The translations under genes and the position numbers were made by a program. A DNA stretch of 42,116 nt from a virus. Positions 349-41,804 of the stretch are shown piece after piece. The first letter of the stretch is position 1; each line of letters starts with the position of its first letter. Location: positions 1-42,116 of IMG/VR virus record IMGVR_UViG_3300008954_000099, one strand, 5' to 3'. Below the pieces are notes generated by a model. That model ran no database searches, was not told where the DNA came from, and was given only the letters and a program-made list of their open reading frames with translations.

Positions 349-546
349 TTATTTGATGTGTTCCCATTCGGTGGCCATCCCTCGATGCTGCGTGCCTCCG
401 ACCAAAACCGTGATCACTTCATAGGGGGAATCAGTGCTGCCAACAGCGATTACCACACCTGGCTTATCAGTGTATGTAAAATGCTTGTTGTTTTTGGCAG
501 CCCAAAACATCATTGTCTTCATTTTCACCAGATCACCGACTTTCAT
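349..546 (-). CDS. MKVGDLV-family small protein
   Basis: 65 residues beginning MKVGDLVKMKTMMFWAAK, with a central GVVIAVG strand. It is the last gene of its operon, and it lacks the usual LEVxNES tail, ending EWEHIK before a TAA. That fits the idea that the tail is kept only when another gene follows. Its start overlaps the preceding family member by 14 nt. Function unknown. Confidence 0.8.
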   Translation of the reverse strand: MKVGDLVKMKTMMFWAAKNNKHFTYTDKPGVVIAVGSTDSPYEVITVLVGGTQHRGMATEWEHIK

Positions 547-715
547 TGATCACTTCCAGCCACGCCACCGGTTCAAGTTGGATTCTTTCGCGATCTGTCC
601 ACATGACACCTACACGATTGCGTGTGTTGGGTCGATGCGGGACCGGTCCAAGGTTTACAACAATACCGACGAGCAAATCGCTATCCTCCATTCTTACCAA
701 ATCACCGACTTTCAT
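533..715 (-). CDS. MKVGDLV-family small protein
   Basis: 60 residues from the ATG at 715, ending LEVINESR. An in-frame ATG at 769 would add an 18-residue Cys-rich leader, but that stretch is the micropeptide gene at 712-816 read in another frame. The start at 715 has GGAG 8 nt upstream and gives the family N-terminus. The core GIVVNLGP and the strand VGVMWTD are visible. The start ATGA overlaps the stop of the micropeptide, and the 3' end overlaps the next gene by 14 nt. Confidence 0.82.
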   Translation of the reverse strand: MKVGDLVRMEDSDLLVGIVVNLGPVPHRPNTRNRVGVMWTDRERIQLEPVAWLEVINESR

Positions 716-816
716 TGCAGTGGCTCCATCGCATAAGCAAAAAGCCATGCAAAATAGGCAAAAACGCAAAGCATCATAATGCCAGAGGCGTCCTCAAGAT
801 ATTGTCTGAACTTCAT
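712..816 (-). CDS. 34-residue single-span membrane micropeptide
   Basis: Starts MKFRQYLEDASG, followed by a hydrophobic aromatic-rich helix (MMLCVFAYFAWLFAYA) and a short tail. A very strong Shine-Dalgarno (GGAGGAG) sits just upstream of the ATG, and the gene is the first one after promoter P2. The stop overlaps the ATGA of the next gene. By inference it is an inner-membrane micropeptide with a cytoplasmic charged N-terminus. Function unknown. Confidence 0.65.
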   Translation of the reverse strand: MKFRQYLEDASGIMMLCVFAYFAWLFAYAMEPLQ

Positions 817-835
817 TAGCTCCTCCTACTCTATA

Positions 836-890
836 AGAATACCAAATAAGAGGGCCAAAGTCAAGACATCAAATGTCAAGAGAATGTTAA
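836..890 (-). promoter_or_regulatory. Triple-TTGACA sigma70 promoter P2
   Basis: Boxes on the minus strand are TTAACA (885-890), TTGACA (874-879), TTGACT (859-864, -35) and TATTCT (836-841, -10) with a 17-bp spacer. The middle box is 15 bp from the -35 here, against 14 in the other five promoters. The TAA stop of the upstream gene (887-889) lies inside the distal box. Downstream CTTATAGAGTA is shared with P1. Confidence 0.8.
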
Positions 891-1171
891 GGACACTTTG
901 TAAATGAAGCCATTCGGTCATCAATAAAATCCTTGGCAAAACGCAAGCCTGAAAACTTAGGTTCTTCCTGTGTTTCTTCGGCTTGCTCGAGTAGTTTGTG
1001 ACATTCTTTGCCGTACTCTCGCACGAGTTTGATCAAGTCGAGCTTGGAAAGCATGGATTTGCCACTGTGGCTAATGGTGTTGGCATACTTCTTGCAAAGA
1101 AGGTTTGCGATTTTCTGTGCATCCAACAGTCCGCTCGGATCGCTGGTGTCGATAACGATTGTCATTTTCAT
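887..1171 (-). CDS. Hypothetical protein, 94 aa
   Basis: Begins MKMTIVIDTSDPSGLLDAQK and is predicted mainly helical, with a Lys-rich middle (KLDLIKLVREYGKECHKLLEQ). I do not recognise it. Its ATG overlaps the TGA of the preceding MKVGDLV gene, whose CTCGAGGT codons supply the ribosome binding site. It is the last gene of the P3 operon; its stop codon sits in the distal TTAACA box of P2. Confidence 0.7.
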   Translation of the reverse strand: MKMTIVIDTSDPSGLLDAQKIANLLCKKYANTISHSGKSMLSKLDLIKLVREYGKECHKLLEQAEETQEEPKFSGLRFAKDFIDDRMASFTKCP

Positions 1172-1329
1172 TTAACTACCTCGAGCACTTTTTCTCTACC
1201 TGGCCAAATACGCCCCTTGATAAAAACATCAAACACGAGGGTGCCACCAGGGAGTCTCCGACTGGCAATGATAACCCCTATGGGCTTTCCCACTGCATAC
1301 TTGCAACGCACCAAGTCACCGACTTTCAT
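1168..1329 (-). CDS. MKVGDLV-family small protein, 53 aa
   Basis: Begins MKVGDLVRCKYAVGKPIGVI, contains a VFDVFIKGRIW strand, and ends VLEVVK, one of the shortest members. The end is cut to a 4-nt overlap (ATGA) with the unrelated gene at 887-1171, but the CTCGAGGT ribosome-binding sequence is kept. The 5' end shares the 14-nt overlap with the gene upstream. Confidence 0.75.
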   Translation of the reverse strand: MKVGDLVRCKYAVGKPIGVIIASRRLPGGTLVFDVFIKGRIWPGREKVLEVVK

Positions 1330-1471
1330 TTATAACTTCCAAGGTGTGGGCGGGAGTTGCGAACGTTCCGTAACTCCCCCAGTTTACGCGGACAATGCCA
1401 GCACGACTATAAACCACGATCCCTACTCGCAAATGACAGTTGCGCTTTCTCACAAGGTCACCCACTTTCAT
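1316..1471 (-). CDS. MKVGDLV-family small protein, 51 aa
   Basis: Begins MKVGDLVRKRNCHLRVGIVV, with the strand GIVRVNWGSYG, and ends LEVINESR. It is near the minimal size for the family: N-terminal strand, GIVV strand, V-x-V-x-W strand and tail. Its ATGA overlaps the stop of the small basic protein upstream, with AGGTG as Shine-Dalgarno. The 3' end overlaps the next gene by 14 nt through ATGAAAGTCGGTGA. Confidence 0.75.
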   Translation of the reverse strand: MKVGDLVRKRNCHLRVGIVVYSRAGIVRVNWGSYGTFATPAHTLEVINESR

Positions 1472-1605
1472 GCTCTCACCTTCTGGCGACAAGCACGTTT
1501 GTTTGCTTCTTTCTTGCGATCCTTCATGGCTCCTGCACGGCGAAAATGCGCGTGTACTGCGAGCCAGTTGCGAGCCTTCGGGGTTTTAGCCTTTCTCTTT
1601 TTCAT
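1468..1605 (-). CDS. Small Arg/Lys-rich phage protein, probable leaderless gene
   Basis: 45 residues from the ATG at 1605 (47 from the ATG at 1611). The protein is strongly basic, with a core ARNWLAVHAHFRRAGAMKDR and a tail rich in KK, KR and CR. From memory it resembles a widespread very short phage protein with an N-x-LAV-x-AHxRxAG pattern; function unknown. The -10 box of P3 (1612-1617) lies immediately upstream, placing the predicted +1 on the A of the ATG at 1605. There is therefore no room for a Shine-Dalgarno. The stop overlaps the next gene's ATGA. Confidence 0.6.
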   Translation of the reverse strand: MKKRKAKTPKARNWLAVHAHFRRAGAMKDRKKEANKRACRQKVRA

Positions 1606-1611
1606 ATTCAT

Positions 1612-1665
1612 AATATACCATTTACCCCTGCAAAAGTCAAGTCTCAAATGTTAAGAGAATGTCAA
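1612..1665 (-). promoter_or_regulatory. Triple-TTGACA sigma70 promoter P3
   Basis: Boxes on the minus strand are TTGACA (1660-1665), TTAACA (1649-1654), TTGACT (1635-1640, -35) and TATATT (1612-1617, -10) with a 17-bp spacer. The TGA stop of the upstream gene (1662-1664) falls inside the distal box. The +1 is predicted on or next to the start codon of the first gene. Confidence 0.78.
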
Positions 1666-1829
1666 GCCTTACTTATAACTCTGAACCTACAACCAACGCG
1701 CCCTGTTACCAACTTTCCAGTAGATAAAAACAGCACGTCGATATAATGGTGGCCAGGGGCAGACGAATGAATGTTTTGCACGATAGCTAAGTTGCCTTTC
1801 GGACTTTGAACAAGATCACCTACTTTCAT
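1662..1829 (-). CDS. MKVGDLV-family small protein, 55 aa
   Basis: Begins MKVGDLVQSPKGNLAIVQN and contains HHYIDVLFLSTGK. It is the last gene of its operon and ends FRVISKA, a decayed form of the LEVIS-E tail whose DNA still resembles a junction (AGAGTTATAAGTAAG). The stop codon TGA is part of the distal TTGACA box of P3. The start overlaps the preceding member by 14 nt. Confidence 0.75.
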   Translation of the reverse strand: MKVGDLVQSPKGNLAIVQNIHSSAPGHHYIDVLFLSTGKLVTGRVGCRFRVISKA

Positions 1830-2016
1830 TTAGAACCTCCAAGTTCTCATCGGTCCACCAACCTTTTCCATAGCGGTATGTTTCCTTAGCTTCAATCCAA
1901 AAAATCCTAACGTACTCTTCAGTCTTCTCCATGATGATACCTAACTCCGTCGGATCAACCTTAGAGTAAACATGGCGATCACCAAAATGTCCGCGTACAA
2001 GATCACCTACTTTCAT
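1816..2016 (-). CDS. MKVGDLV-family small protein, 66 aa
   Basis: Begins MKVGDLVRGHFGDRHVYSK, with the core ELGIIMEKTEEYVRIFWIE, and ends NLEVLNESR. The L-E-V codons read TTG GAG GTT, a perfect GGAGGT Shine-Dalgarno 5 nt before the ATG of the next gene. Its own ATG follows directly after the TAA of the gene upstream. Confidence 0.8.
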   Translation of the reverse strand: MKVGDLVRGHFGDRHVYSKVDPTELGIIMEKTEEYVRIFWIEAKETYRYGKGWWTDENLEVLNESR

Positions 2017-2379
2017 TTAGTATGCAATCCTCGTTTGGGGATAAATGGAGAAGCCTCCACCTCGGTGTACAATGTCGTCGCTACTTTCTCCGACGCGCAC
2101 AAAGTCATAAAAATCTATGGCGTCGGCGCCTTCGACTCTGGTGTCGTCGCACCAATCCATAAAATCGGTCAAGGCATCAATAACTTCATAGCCTTCGTAC
2201 CATTTGATCTGTGTCCACCGGAAAAGAAGGGTGCCTTTCTCATTATCATAATCCTTGATCATCTCGTCGGCATGCTCAAAACACAAAGCGCGTGCTTCGG
2301 GGCACTTGGCCAATGTCGTCAAAAACTGTGGCATCACTTCTGGACCCACTACCAAAACGACTTCTGATCGATAACCCAT
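2017..2379 (-). CDS. Conserved phage protein of the MGYRS type, 120 aa
   Basis: Begins MGYRSEVVLVVGPEVMPQF, an N-terminus I remember from many phage hypothetical proteins (MGYRSxV). It has a mixed alpha/beta composition with a Trp-rich middle (FRWTQIKWYEGYEV) and an acidic region (DWCDDTRVEGADAIDFYDF). Function unknown. It is the first gene after promoter P4 with GGGAGAG as ribosome binding site, and is followed without a gap by two MKVGDLV genes. Confidence 0.75.
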   Translation of the reverse strand: MGYRSEVVLVVGPEVMPQFLTTLAKCPEARALCFEHADEMIKDYDNEKGTLLFRWTQIKWYEGYEVIDALTDFMDWCDDTRVEGADAIDFYDFVRVGESSDDIVHRGGGFSIYPQTRIAY

Positions 2380-2411
2380 CTGCTCTCTCCCTTTTTCGAG
2401 CTTATAATAGT

Positions 2412-2465
2412 ATTATAGCGGAGATTGACTTGAAAGTCAACCCGCAAATGTCAAGAGAATGTCAA
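2412..2465 (-). promoter_or_regulatory. Triple-TTGACA sigma70 promoter P4
   Basis: Boxes on the minus strand are TTGACA (2460-2465), TTGACA (2449-2454), TTGACT (2435-2440, -35) and a perfect TATAAT (2412-2417, -10) with a 17-bp spacer. An imperfect inverted repeat (GCTATAAT...ATTATAAGC, one bulge) overlaps the -10 and start site and could be an operator. Confidence 0.82.
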
Positions 2466-2528
2466 GAGGTTTCACTTATAACCTGGATAGTCCGCGTCAA
2501 TCCACATGACCAAATCACCTACTTTCAT
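2462..2528 (-). pseudogene. Broken MKVGDLV-family copy
   Basis: Starts normally (MKVGDLVMWIDADYPG) but the reading frame stops after 18 residues at 2472. The DNA then shows the family's end signature, GGTTATAAGTGAAA, out of frame. Read in the original frame it would give V-I-S-E-T-S and a TGA at 2462-2464 inside the distal box of P4, as in the gene at 1662. A large internal deletion with frameshift explains this. The N-terminal 18-mer may still be translated, since its start and ribosome binding site are intact. Confidence 0.65.
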
Positions 2529-2704
2529 GATTGCCCTTGTTGGTAGGGGCTAACCAAATGCGGCATGACCCAGCCCCTTCTACCGTCAACCCAAAGAACC
2601 ACCGGGCAAGGCGTGGAGCTGCCATCAAAAAAGTACCAAGACACTATGATACCCAGGATGCCAGATTCAGACTTAAGGTTTCTCACCAAATCACCGACCT
2701 TCAT
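2525..2704 (-). CDS. MKVGDLV-family small protein, 59 aa
   Basis: Starts at the ATG at 2704, giving MKVGDLVRNLKSESGILGII. A longer in-frame extension to 2881 only reads across the neighbouring gene. It contains the strand CPVVLWVDGRRGW and ends SPYQQGQS instead of LEVxNES. The following copy is broken, and the 14-nt junction is reduced here to a 4-nt ATGA overlap with AAGGG as ribosome binding site. Confidence 0.75.
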   Translation of the reverse strand: MKVGDLVRNLKSESGILGIIVSWYFFDGSSTPCPVVLWVDGRRGWVMPHLVSPYQQGQS

Positions 2705-2915
2705 TTGTAAACTCCGAATCGTCACACCACACCTGGACGGGCGGAAAACGAGGCTTGCCATTGAGTCTAAACCAGTACACAAGGTAAGGAAACCGCTGGC
2801 CACATGGTTCGCTGAAGCTGATGTGTGCGAGCACTCCATGATCACTTTCACAACCCCTGTCCCAATATTGCGAGAAAACAAGATCTCCCACGGCTAAAGG
2901 TTTATTTGGGCGCAT
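2691..2915 (-). CDS. MKVGDLV-family protein with extended N-terminus, 74 aa
   Basis: Starts at the ATG at 2915 (MRPNKPLAVGDLVFSQYWDR), chosen for its GGAGGT Shine-Dalgarno. The motif is shifted by seven residues and reads AVGDLV. The middle is longer than usual (YLVYWFRLNGKPRFPPVQVW) and the end is EFTNEGR. The 5' overlap with the gene upstream is 14 nt but of a different sequence (ATGCGCCCAAATAA), so the length is conserved where the sequence is not. Confidence 0.75.
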   Translation of the reverse strand: MRPNKPLAVGDLVFSQYWDRGCESDHGVLAHISFSEPCGQRFPYLVYWFRLNGKPRFPPVQVWCDDSEFTNEGR

Positions 2916-3072
2916 TGAGCACCTCCAAACTTTCTGTTCTAAAAAGCCAACGCCTTTCTGCGAATAACACGCGCACATATTCGCCATTTCGAGAGATAGA
3001 AGTCACCAACAGTGCAGGCGAAGGTTCACCGCACAGTGTCTTTCGTTGTTTTACAAGATCACCGACCTTCAC
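2902..3072 (-). CDS. MKVGDLV-family small protein, GTG start, 56 aa
   Basis: A GTG at 3072 begins (M)KVGDLVKQRKTLCGEPSPA, with GGAGGT five nt upstream inside the preceding gene. The core is LLVTSISRNGEYVRVLFAE; the end is SLEVLNAPK. GTG replaces ATG by one base change in the shared junction, which also changes the upstream gene's N-E-S to S-E-G. It overlaps both neighbours by 14 nt. Confidence 0.75.
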   Translation of the reverse strand: MKVGDLVKQRKTLCGEPSPALLVTSISRNGEYVRVLFAERRWLFRTESLEVLNAPK

Positions 3073-3241
3073 TTAGAACCTCCAAGTGCTTCTCGGTGTA
3101 TTGTCGCGCTCCCCTCATTGTCATGACAAGCACGCGACGACCAAAGATCGAGTCATCCATCGGACTGGTAAGGAACTTAGTAATGATCCCCACATCCTCA
3201 CGTATCGAGTTTTTGAATCTCACAAGATCACCGACCTTCAT
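3059..3241 (-). CDS. MKVGDLV-family small protein, 60 aa
   Basis: First gene after promoter P5. The predicted mRNA leader is only about 12 nt and is mostly the Shine-Dalgarno AGGAGATGAG. The protein begins MKVGDLVRFKNSIREDVGII, has a basic middle (GRRVLVMTMRGARQY), and ends HLEVLSEGR, where TTGGAGGT serves the next gene's GTG start. Confidence 0.8.
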   Translation of the reverse strand: MKVGDLVRFKNSIREDVGIITKFLTSPMDDSIFGRRVLVMTMRGARQYTEKHLEVLSEGR

Positions 3242-3259
3242 CTCTCATCTCCTATACAC

Positions 3260-3313
3260 AGTATAGCACCGGACCCACACAGAGTCAAGTGCCAAATGTC
3301 AAGAGAATGTCAA
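3260..3313 (-). promoter_or_regulatory. Triple-TTGACA sigma70 promoter P5
   Basis: Boxes on the minus strand are TTGACA (3308-3313), TTGACA (3297-3302), TTGACT (3283-3288, -35) and TATACT (3260-3265, -10) with a 17-bp spacer. The stop codon of the upstream MazG-like gene (3314-3316) abuts the distal box. Confidence 0.82.
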
Positions 3314-3709
3314 CTACCAGTCAGTAGGATCGTTGGCTATGACACCAGCCTCCCACTCCATCCCTGGCTGCATGGTTTTTTGGCGGGGAGTGGTGGACTT
3401 TAAGATGATGCCCTGCATAAATCCGCCGCGCTTCTCAGCCTTCTCGCGGGCTGCGTTTAACACCTCTTCAAAATCAATGTCGTGCAGGAATGTGAAAGCA
3501 AACAAAACTTCGAGCATGTCTGCCGCCTCCTCCACGCATGAGTTCTCAACAAACTCATCGGTTTCCTCAATGATCTTTTCTCTGAGACATTCAATGTGTT
3601 CGGCTCGATCTTTTACTTTGCGCCACTCACACGTTCTGCCACTTTCTTCGATGATTTGCGGGATAAAATCCCTAACAAGTTTCATTTGTTTCTCCATTGT
3701 TGTTTTCAT
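3314..3709 (-). CDS. MazG-like NTP pyrophosphohydrolase
   Basis: 131 residues (123 if translation starts at MKLVRDF, 3685, which has GGAG six nt upstream). The motifs KLVRDFIPQIIEESG, LREKIIEETDEF and EEAADMLEVLFAF match the all-alpha NTP pyrophosphohydrolase fold of the COG4997 type. There the E-E-x2-E and E-x2-D acidic residues bind Mg and hydrolyse nucleoside triphosphates. The end GGFMQGIIL also fits. By inference it adjusts the nucleotide pool or an alarmone during infection. It is the last gene of the P6 operon and its ATGA overlaps the previous MKVGDLV gene. Confidence 0.75.
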   Translation of the reverse strand: MKTTMEKQMKLVRDFIPQIIEESGRTCEWRKVKDRAEHIECLREKIIEETDEFVENSCVEEAADMLEVLFAFTFLHDIDFEEVLNAAREKAEKRGGFMQGIILKSTTPRQKTMQPGMEWEAGVIANDPTDW

Positions 3710-3918
3710 TTTTCACTAATCACCTCTGCTTCATCGTTGGCCAAGTCCCACTCCCCACAATCAAACTGGACAATCCACATCTGACAGCCGCGCCGATATT
3801 CGTCTTGTTTTTTCACGACGCCGATTCGGCTGCTTTCGTAAAAGCAAAAGAAACATTCGCACTCTCCATTGGCATATGGAGGACAGTCGGCTACTTTTAC
3901 TAAGTCACCCACTTTCAT
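3706..3918 (-). CDS. MKVGDLV-family protein with Cys cluster, 70 aa
   Basis: Begins MKVGDLVKVADCPPYANGEC, followed by CFFCFYES, so four Cys (C12, C20, C22, C25) might bind metal; no other member shows this. The later core is SRIGVVKKQDEY and MWIVQFDCGEWDL. It ends AEVISEK. The junction (GAGGTGATTAGTGAAA) still contains a typical GTG start position, but the frame from it stops after 14 codons and the real next gene starts a few bases on. Confidence 0.78.
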   Translation of the reverse strand: MKVGDLVKVADCPPYANGECECFFCFYESSRIGVVKKQDEYRRGCQMWIVQFDCGEWDLANDEAEVISEK

Positions 3919-4138
3919 TTACAACCTCCAAGAGCGCGCGCATGTGCCAGCTTTTGCCGCCGCGTGGCCAAACCACGATAGCATCATTCCACACATCGCA
4001 ATCGGGATCACGGTCTAACGAATAACCTCTTGATTCAAAAGCGATCACAATACCATATCCCATCTCATCAAGTCCCTTTTGAAAACCGGGGTCTCCCTCG
4101 GTGTGGCTCTTTATTTTAACTATGTCACCGATTTTCAT
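3905..4138 (-). CDS. MKVGDLV-family small protein, 77 aa
   Basis: Begins MKIGDIVKIKSHTEGDPGFQ, a conservative variant of the family start. The core MGYGIVIAFES and DAIVVWPRGGKSWHM is visible, and it ends LLEVVNESG. The final Gly is explained by the next gene's Val3 codon GTG: the overlap ATGAAAGTGGGTGA gives GGG as last codon instead of CGG. TTGGAGGT is the next gene's Shine-Dalgarno. Confidence 0.8.
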   Translation of the reverse strand: MKIGDIVKIKSHTEGDPGFQKGLDEMGYGIVIAFESRGYSLDRDPDCDVWNDAIVVWPRGGKSWHMRALLEVVNESG

Positions 4139-4301
4139 TGATCACCTCGAGTGCTCTTACCATGAAAGGCACAACCTCACCATTCAGCAAAACATCTACA
4201 AAAGATACATTCATGCCATGACGAATATCGCTCACCACAATCGCATAGACTCCGGGTCGAGCGTACTTGTTCTTCACTCGCACCAAGTCACCTACTTTCA
4301 C
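4125..4301 (-). CDS. MKVGDLV-family small protein, GTG start, 58 aa
   Basis: A GTG at 4301 begins (M)KVGDLVRVKNKYARPGVYAI. The core is VVSDIRHGMNVSFVDVLLNGE and the end ALEVINENR. Too short for a 60-codon cutoff, but fixed in place by exact 14-nt overlaps on both sides and by GGAG within the upstream codons. The final N-E-N-R reflects the neighbour starting MKIGD (ATC) instead of MKVGD. Confidence 0.77.
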   Translation of the reverse strand: MKVGDLVRVKNKYARPGVYAIVVSDIRHGMNVSFVDVLLNGEVVPFMVRALEVINENR

Positions 4302-4488
4302 TAATCAACTCCATCTGGTCAAGTGATGTTGAATAGATTTGTCCATCCCACCACACAAATGCGCGGGTAATAACGGGATAGCCACCCTTGTCCTCTCCAA
4401 TGGATACAATATCATCACGAATAAAAATCCCAAGAGTGGGTCTTTCATATGGACCAAACGTTATTTTTACTAAATCACCGAGCGTCAC
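4288..4488 (-). CDS. MKVGDLV-family small protein, GTG start, 66 aa
   Basis: A GTG at 4488 begins (M)TLGDLVKITFGPYERPTLGI. The core is GYPVITRAFVWWDGQIY and it ends QMELISESR, where ATGGAGTTG carries the GGAG for the next gene. The start motif has drifted (TLGDLV) yet the 14-nt overlap with the gene upstream is retained. Confidence 0.78.
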   Translation of the reverse strand: MTLGDLVKITFGPYERPTLGIFIRDDIVSIGEDKGGYPVITRAFVWWDGQIYSTSLDQMELISESR

Positions 4489-4681
4489 TTATAACCTCTA
4501 AAATCTCTGCCACATCAGCCTTGTAAGTGGCAATAAAATGGCCGCGCGGCCCATAAGTCCAAATGATTTCAATAGCCCCGTTACGATTTTTTTGTACAAT
4601 GCCTGTCCAGTTAGCGCAGTAATCTAAACCAGGACGAAGCGTATGTTGGCGCGTAAACTTAACCAAATCGCCGCGCTTCAT
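4475..4681 (-). CDS. MKVGDLV-family small protein, 68 aa
   Basis: Starts at the ATG at 4681 (MKRGDLVKFTRQHTLRPGLD) with AAGGAG seven nt upstream; it is the first gene after promoter P6. The core contains TGIVQKNRNGAIEIIWTYG and the end is EILEVISDAR, in which AGAGGT is the ribosome binding site of the next gene. Confidence 0.8.
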   Translation of the reverse strand: MKRGDLVKFTRQHTLRPGLDYCANWTGIVQKNRNGAIEIIWTYGPRGHFIATYKADVAEILEVISDAR

Positions 4682-4704
4682 CACTATCTCCTTAGTATGT
4701 ATCC

Positions 4705-4758
4705 ATCATACATCAAATGGGTTTTCTTGTCAAGGCTTTTGTGTCAAGGAATTGTCAG
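4705..4758 (-). promoter_or_regulatory. Triple-TTGACA sigma70 promoter P6
   Basis: Boxes on the minus strand are CTGACA (4753-4758), TTGACA (4742-4747), TTGACA (4728-4733, perfect -35) and TATGAT (4705-4710, -10) with a 17-bp spacer. The bases between boxes differ from the other five copies while the spacing does not. All three boxes lie within the last codons of the upstream gene, whose TGA stop is in the -35 box. Confidence 0.8.
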
Positions 4759-40649: not shown

Positions 40650-41804
40650 TTAGTCTTTAAGAGGGATAGTCAAATCTTCAGGCTCTGAATAAAATGCTTC
40701 CGCATTTCCTTCGCGACGATGAAACTTTTGAACAATCTCCTCATCCATTAGACGTATGACATGTCCTTTAAATTCAATGTCAGATGTAATTAGTTCAGAC
40801 CATTTAGAAGGTTGAAACTTTTTGGTGTAACCATCCGGCATTGTTAAGGTATACCAAGCACCTGCGCTTGTCAAACAATCGGATCCCTTAATGGCATCAA
40901 ACCAACTCTCTTCATCTCGAATCCCAACCTCTTCGGTGCCCCACAGAATGCGGAAAGCACATGAACGTCCTTGAGTTCCAAAGCGAGACTTCTCCAGCTT
41001 ACACTTAACTTCGGAACCAATACGAAAGCCCTTTTCATCTTCAATGAAGGAAGACTTAGCCTTGCGTCCGGTGAGCCAAATGCGCAGAGAATATGAATAG
41101 TGCATAGCCTTGCCGCCAGGTGTAGTGTAGGGCGTTGTCATTGCAACGATTCGTGCGTTGGGTCCTTGGGGAATGTTTGTCTTCAACTGGTTGAGGACAA
41201 TCAATGTAGCCTGCATGTCAGCAATGGGGATGACAAGCTTTGACATTCCTTTTGCAAGGATGCGCGCCTTCACTGCCATCGATGATTGCGGATTGAAGTC
41301 GCCCTCTACGTCTGAGACAGAAGGCGTAAATGCCAGGGAGTCCCAAATAAAAACCAGTTGATCTTCGGCCGCTCCCAGCAACTCTTCGATTGTCTCTAAG
41401 ACAAACTCGACAGAAGCTGCCTGGATGTACATTAAACGGTCTAGGTCGCACCCTGTACGCTCTAGAAAACTTGGGTCAATGGCTGACTCGGAGTCAAAAT
41501 ATATTACAAGCTTGCCCTGTTTCTGAGCGTTTGCAGCGATTTGTGCTGCCATGTATGACTTGCCTGTAGATTCCAAGCCTGCAATTTCTGTGACCTTTCC
41601 TACAGGAATTCCGCCCATTTCTCCTTTGCGCACAATGGAGTCAAGCCATCGTGAGCCAGTAGGAATCCACTCCTTGACTGCTGTAGGATTATCTCCTGTT
41701 AAATTATGCGCAACGTTGCGTCCCGCCTTCTTGTTGACGAGCTTCATTAGGTCTTGGATTGCTACGCGTCCTGCTTTTGCGGATGCTTGTGCTTTTCTTG
41801 CCAT
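40650..41804 (-). CDS. RecA/UvsX-like recombinase
   Basis: 384 residues. Walker A EIAGLESTGKSYMAAQ (76-83), catalytic Glu in IYFDSESAID (E106), and Walker B LVFIWDSLAF (D155). The loops SVSDVEGDFNPQSSMAVKAR and VLNQLKTNIPQ belong to the DNA-binding region. It polymerises on single-stranded DNA and drives recombination-dependent replication and repair. The C-terminus is longer than in phage T4 UvsX. AAGGAG before ATG. Confidence 0.92.
   Translation of the reverse strand: MARKAQASAKAGRVAIQDLMKLVNKKAGRNVAHNLTGDNPTAVKEWIPTGSRWLDSIVRKGEMGGIPVGKVTEIAGLESTGKSYMAAQIAANAQKQGKLVIYFDSESAIDPSFLERTGCDLDRLMYIQAASVEFVLETIEELLGAAEDQLVFIWDSLAFTPSVSDVEGDFNPQSSMAVKARILAKGMSKLVIPIADMQATLIVLNQLKTNIPQGPNARIVAMTTPYTTPGGKAMHYSYSLRIWLTGRKAKSSFIEDEKGFRIGSEVKCKLEKSRFGTQGRSCAFRILWGTEEVGIRDEESWFDAIKGSDCLTSAGAWYTLTMPDGYTKKFQPSKWSELITSDIEFKGHVIRLMDEEIVQKFHRREGNAEAFYSEPEDLTIPLKD

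Follow-up and report, generated by a model that had tools for sequence, protein, structure and literature searches.

What holds together a row of small phage genes in which the end of one protein and the start of the next are written in the same few bases? The first 4.7 kb of the virus record IMGVR_UViG_3300008954_000099, analyzed here as a whole (42,116 bases; hereafter the window) and probably a fragment of a large phage, carry on the minus strand small genes in five groups, each headed by a promoter-like site and most of them with an MKVGDLV start. A preliminary description of this DNA had proposed that the protein tail LEVxNES doubles as the ribosome site and start codon of the following gene, and that recombination within this connector could add, delete, or swap genes. 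We describe such loci, with high confidence, as cassette arrays of small KOW/SH3-like phage genes linked by a dual-coding connector: the joint has a constant anatomy and is widespread, its Shine-Dalgarno (SD) sequence is selected in dependence on a follower, and genes are gained, lost, and replaced at starts with both frames intact.

All ten reported stop/start overlaps of exactly 14 nucleotides (nt) were found on the minus strand (Table 1); the pairs, said to be successive, do not form one run but are split among the five groups described above, every group having a promoter-like site of its own. Among the 44 neighboring open reading frame (ORF) pairs of the window that lie outside the family, one overlaps by 14 nt and ten by 4 nt (Fisher p = 4e-9 for the 14-nt excess in the family). 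A follower start RTGAAAGTnGGTGA reads (N/S)-E-S-(R/G/W)-stop in the other frame. The NESR/ESR tail is thus forced, since the register is fixed and the follower's ATGAAAGTnGGTGA encodes the last codons of the previous gene and its TGA, and the final residue tracks the third base of the next gene's Val3 codon by the rule already proposed (GTC or GTA gives Arg, GTG gives Gly). The non-trivial parts of the connector are the register, the SD sequence at a constant distance, and the stop-making GGT codon of Gly4. The follower starting at 2915 (ATGCGCCCAAATAA) still terminates the previous gene at 14 nt, with TAA as the stop. Two other proposed features hold for part of the joints: the tail is literally LEVxNES in four of ten (533, 1316, 1816, and 3905), the others reading LEVINENR, MELISESR, LEVISDAR, LEVLSEGR, LEVLNAPK, and SEFTNEGR, and the L-E-V codons spell exactly GGAGGT in four of ten, with GGAAGT, GAGGT, or GGAGTT in the rest. 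A conserved hairpin was rejected: one of the ten window connectors folds clearly better than shuffles, and nine do not.

Further loci were gathered by three IMG/VR scans, one with the start motif only and two with the connector; the family-wide counts of pairs, tails, codons, and indels refer to the loci listed by these scans, with duplicates removed for pair counts. At least 233 loci were collected, including the window and five loci in contigs of bacterial metagenome-assembled genomes (MAGs), with chains of 2–14 genes and at least 672 family pairs with the exact 14-nt overlap, at least 92 with a 4-nt overlap, and at least 12 with a 1-nt overlap. The commonest connector reads TGGAGGTnATCA-RTG, and has up to ten bases complementary to the 3′ end of 16S rRNA, whose anti-SD sequence is established. 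The Gly4 codon is GGT in 56% of unlinked heads and in 30% of cases in gene bodies, and a GTT codon for Val3, found outside the window, gives Trp as the last residue in 1% of tails. An alternative joint occurs in loci L107 and L024, where several genes of related contigs end in LLSEA with TCGGAGGCATAATG and overlap by 1 nt. From the contig sources and MAG titles such as TaraRedSea, we read the phages carrying the arrays as marine. Among cultured phages, megablast gave no match for 24 kb of the window, tblastn gave none for two family members, and the connector DNA gave chance-level matches only. MKVGDLV was not found in the literature searched, where the matches of the tail peptide were chance strings.

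Genes outside the family use the 14-nt joint too. In L030, VKLVRDGIPKIIEDGG follows a family gene and ends with KVNETR before another one, and ~125 upstream ORFs of the listed loci are unlike family members, some of them being chance frames. Genes of an MKLVRDxIPxII type (MazG-like by eye) lie in or beside arrays, on the minus strand of L030 near 1423–1701, with a connector at either end, and in the window at 3314–3709.

An AlphaFold2 model of the gene at 1316–1471 (137 members) is a five-strand SH3-like barrel with a predicted local distance difference test (pLDDT) value of 93.7, in which residues 44–48 (LEVIN) form beta-5 and the terminal ESR lies outside the strands with low confidence. Its closest solved folds are the Spt5 KOW and PcrA/UvrD Tudor domains, with template modeling (TM) scores of about 0.74–0.80 and Foldseek E-values >0.07, and profile comparison matched Spt5 KOW (E = 8e-4) and NusG (0.027), with no Pfam KOW match. 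Pfam and PHROGs gave no convincing match for ten window proteins and weak scattered matches for the 137 members, the best being phrog_9237 in five of them. The predicted five-strand barrel is what the family shares with the KOW/SH3-like domains of Spt5, NusG, and uL24, but the family proteins stand alone, at about 50–75 amino acids. As a tentative guess, they might act early, as accessory proteins with nucleic acid, RNA polymerase, or ribosomes as binding partners.

The LEVI codons are thus read twice, as the SD sequence (GGAGGTGATC) and as the last beta-strand of the predicted barrel, and the synonymous choice for Glu tells the two roles apart. Among non-redundant genes, GAG is the codon used in 436 of 453 linked genes (96%) but in 29 of 54 (54%) of those without a follower and without an SD plus start (p = 1e-16). 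Glu itself stands at the tail site in 453 of 520 linked genes and in 54 of 118 without a follower and without an SD plus start (p = 3e-20), and internal Glu codons preceding V, L, or I show no bias, GAG making up 338 of 726. Because the GAG bias is confined to linked genes and absent at internal Glu codons, selection on the SD sequence acts at the RNA level and chiefly in genes whose follower requires it. The tail itself depends on the follower, as had been described: the window genes without a 14-nt family follower (349–546, 1168–1329, 1662–1829, 2525–2704, and 3706–3918) lack the full tail, and a NESR-like tail was found in 8 of 446 listed follower-less genes, most of the eight having an uncalled VKVGD or MKVGD start. 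The tail might instead be kept for protein function, with LEVI closing the barrel, ESR acting as a binding tail, and the RNA signals incidental. LEVI is indeed beta-5 in the model, and Glu persists in 46% of follower-less genes; however, the synonymous bias appears only where a follower needs the SD sequence, and ESR is missing without a follower and has no strand in the model. We regard this account as highly improbable, and in its pure form it is rejected by the GAG test. The tail is therefore an RNA-level connector, as first proposed, but not purely so, as LEVI probably also has a protein role as the closing beta-strand. GTG starts are found in 52% of 14-nt-linked followers compared to 12% of heads, and this tolerance of weak starts fits translational coupling.

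Comparison of related contigs showed where genes come and go. For 23 of 33 independent indels near family genes, the start motif contains both junctions, where 4.0 would be expected for one side (p about 2e-14). Replaced segments have 38 edges, of which 27 are at family starts; the breakpoints are thus not scattered. Repeats of 14–48 nt are shared at the indel junctions. Each of the 24 excisions that were traced leaves the upstream gene in a working register with its new follower, the overlap being mostly 14 nt both before and after the event. The unit length is generally not divisible by three, so the frame would be lost unless the stop travelled with the follower. Loci L027 and L034 are 99.5–100% identical over 11 kb except for one 176-nt cassette bounded by the 20-nt repeat ATGAAAGTCGGTGATTTGGT. 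L174 and L188, with flanks 98–99.6% identical over 7.7 kb, carry unrelated genes of 55 amino acids between the same two intact connectors. Between the window and its nearest listed relative, 17.8 kb contain 48 differences, of which 23 fall within 1852–2038, at the cassette 1816–2016. The proposal that recombination adds, deletes, and swaps genes thus holds for the gains, losses, and swaps at joints with frames intact; judging from the sequences, the exchanged unit would span start to start, with homology supplied by the first 20 nt of the next gene and often the ribosome site. The otherwise identical L027 and L034 also show two dense clusters of substitutions (L027 5440–5520 and 6213–6320), the second of which stops at a connector, a pattern suggestive of short conversion tracts.

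Ordinary translational coupling plus tandem duplication would explain part of this picture: the overlap would have arisen once and been copied along without a role in exchange, selection leaving survivors that look precise. Coupled overlapping gene pairs are common in prokaryotes (PMC6728339, PMC10666635), paralogues would naturally share their junction, and selection by itself predicts breakpoints at gene boundaries. However, the junctions lie within shared start repeats on both sides and not at arbitrary gene boundaries, genes outside the family use the joint as well, and the whole-gene replacement between L174 and L188 needs exchange beyond duplication. We therefore find this explanation possible but rather unlikely. 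Faulty assembly at short repeats seems a very unlikely source of the gains, losses, and swaps. The repeats are shorter than many assembly k-mers and the data are all metagenomic contigs, but the missing or swapped genes of the two best pairs have no identical copy elsewhere in the partner contigs, which argues against misassembly; one same deletion form is carried by two separate contigs, L086 and L153; and contigs at 80–95% identity are independent assemblies.

Several points weigh against the cassette interpretation. The linkage frequencies are not population estimates, as two of the three viral scans picked connector-bearing contigs. In ten of the 33 indels, at least one junction lies away from a start. 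Because the start is the most conserved DNA of the family, it is where alignments of divergent pairs are apt to break off, and pairs at ≥90% identity supply just part of the indel events. All sequences are metagenome assemblies, in which misjoins at short repeats may occur.

In the mechanism that we propose for the cassette arrays, the codons of the last beta-strand (L-E-V-I) double as the SD site for the next gene, and the fixed first bases of the follower, RTGAAAGTnGGTGAyyTnGT, give its own start as well as the last codons and stop of the previous gene (TGA within Gly4-Asp5). The 5′ end of a cassette therefore brings a stop for any preceding gene and its 3′ end a ribosome site for any follower. 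Translation of neighbors would be coupled by reinitiation, and cassettes may move by short-homology recombination at the repeated 20–40 nt starts, perhaps through the phage RecA or replication slippage. We lean, by a small measure, toward a broader interpretation, in which a widespread, integrase-free, self-linking cassette system uses a ~30-nt two-frame connector (SD sequence, beta-strand, start, and previous stop) that fits any neighbors and takes up unrelated genes too, acting as translation relay and recombination site for the accessory-gene library of large marine phages.

If true, this would account for the ability of large phages to maintain rapidly changing stocks of small genes with neither intergenic DNA nor an integrase, and it makes testable the claim that a short two-frame joint sets gene order in phage accessory regions. 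An SD sequence selected as a structural beta-strand would be a clear example of dual coding, one for which a synonymous-site test is at hand, and the connector provides a search key for a family that lies outside Pfam and had no cultured-phage match at the sensitivities used.

The features of the window are collected in Table 1. The ten non-family proteins scanned against Pfam include a chaperonin, Pol III alpha, a DnaB-like helicase, a class II ribonucleotide reductase, IMP dehydrogenase, and RecA. The promoter regions are repeated at the operon heads (288–342, 836–880, 1612–1666, 2412–2466, and 3260–3303), where up to two additional TTGACA-like boxes with an 11-bp spacing (TTGACATTCTCTTGACATTT) lie 5′ of the TTGACT-17-TATAAT-like promoter, and the promoter-region sequence TTGACATTCTCTTGACA is also present in ~20 other listed loci.

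Table 1 Features of the arrays and related elements in the window.
Feature	Coordinates	Strand	Remarks
Family gene 1	4475..4684	minus	VMKRGDLV...LEVISDAR; operon 1 head
14-nt connector, genes 1/2	4475..4488	minus	GTGACGCTCGGTGA
Family gene 2	4288..4488	minus	MTLGDLV...MELISESR
14-nt connector, genes 2/3	4288..4301	minus	GTGAAAGTAGGTGA
Family gene 3	4125..4301	minus	VKVGDLV...LEVINENR
14-nt connector, genes 3/4	4125..4138	minus	ATGAAAATCGGTGA
Family gene 4	3905..4138	minus	MKIGDIV...LEVVNESG
14-nt connector, genes 4/5	3905..3918	minus	GGAGGTTGTAA then ATGAAAGTGGGTGA
Family gene 5	3706..3918	minus	Tail AEVISEK; 4-nt overlap with non-family gene
Non-family follower	3314..3709	minus	MKLVRDFIPQII-type; MazG-like by eye, no Pfam match
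Family gene	3059..3241	minus	Operon 2 head
14-nt connector	3059..3072	minus	GTGAAGGTCGGTGA; operon 2
Family gene	2902..3072	minus	Tail LEVLNAPK; operon 2
14-nt connector	2902..2915	minus	Deviant start ATGCGCCCAAATAA
Family gene	2691..2915	minus	Extended start MRPNKPLAVGDLV
14-nt connector	2691..2704	minus	ATGAAGGTCGGTGA
Family gene	2525..2704	minus	Tail-less; 4-nt overlap with truncated family start
Truncated family gene start (18 amino acids)	2472..2528	minus	MKVGDLVMWIDADYPGYK; end of operon 2; perhaps left over from a deleted cassette
Family gene	1816..2016	minus	Allele replaced in nearest listed relative
14-nt connector	1816..1829	minus	GGAGGTTCTAA then ATGAAAGTAGGTGA
Family gene	1662..1829	minus	Operon-terminal; decayed tail RVISKA
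Family gene	1316..1471	minus	Chosen for structure model
14-nt connector	1316..1329	minus	GGAAGTTATAA then ATGAAAGTCGGTGA
Family gene	1168..1329	minus	Tail LEVVK; 4-nt overlap with non-family gene
Family gene	533..715	minus	
14-nt connector	533..546	minus	GGAAGTGATCA then ATGAAAGTCGGTGA
Family gene	349..546	minus	Operon-terminal; tail-less (EWEHIK)
Promoter-like site, operon 1	4705..4733	minus	TTGACA-17-TATGAT
Promoter-like site, operon 2	3260..3288	minus	TTGACT-17-TATACT
Promoter-like site, operon 3	2412..2440	minus	TTGACT-17-TATAAT
Promoter-like site, operon 4	1612..1640	minus	TTGACT-17-TATATT
Promoter-like site, operon 5	836..864	minus	TTGACT-17-TATTCT
RecA-family recombinase	40650..41804	minus	Candidate exchange machinery (putative role)

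Among known systems, coupled overlapping gene pairs (PMC6728339, PMC10666635) resemble the arrays in their overlap and in having the SD sequence inside the upstream gene, with coupling as a likely consequence. In the arrays, the downstream start likewise precedes the upstream stop and the SD sequence lies inside the upstream gene, and 4-nt and 1-nt joints are present too; however, the arrays keep the 14-nt register constant across hundreds of pairs, their stop lies within the conserved Gly-Asp of the follower, and their SD sequence is at the same time a predicted beta-strand. Promoter early stem-loops (PeSLs) consist of an intergenic promoter and a hairpin. In T4-type phages, PeSL mobile cassettes were proposed for shuffling (Arbiol et al. 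2010, cited in PMC4177764, PMC4503421), and, as far as these citing texts describe them, they share with the arrays a conserved sequence beside small accessory genes and a proposed shuffling between related phages. The array linker, in contrast, codes in two frames and has no promoter or consistent hairpin: no PeSL-like early promoter with stem-loop was found at the joint, the strong promoter-like sites being at operon heads and nine of the ten connectors folding not clearly above shuffles.

The start-associated sequences (SAS) of Cluster K mycobacteriophages, which recur immediately 5′ of the start in numerous small genes from different families and have a proposed role in translation initiation, have in common with the connector a repeated sequence at many small-gene starts; the SAS is a distinct 13-bp consensus, to which the sections consulted ascribe neither a coding role in the upstream protein nor a role as breakpoint (PMC3203893). 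The motif itself (GGGATAGGAGCCC) was rejected as not above chance in the window, with two matches at two mismatches compared to 0.63 expected, none of them in the array. As far as the portions of these sources covered describe them, none of PeSL, SAS, and overlap coupling has a two-frame linker that supplies the neighbor's stop. Integron cassette arrays work similarly in that exchangeable units of one gene each stand in tandem and share a common joint. An attC-type intergenic site is impossible in the phage arrays, however, because neighboring genes overlap by 14 nt; no integrase was found among the ten scanned non-family proteins of the window, itself a phage fragment, and the phage joint carries translation signals. 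We therefore read the array as integrase-free and as a variant of the modular exchange that phages carry out at conserved gene starts, working in the manner of a cassette array.

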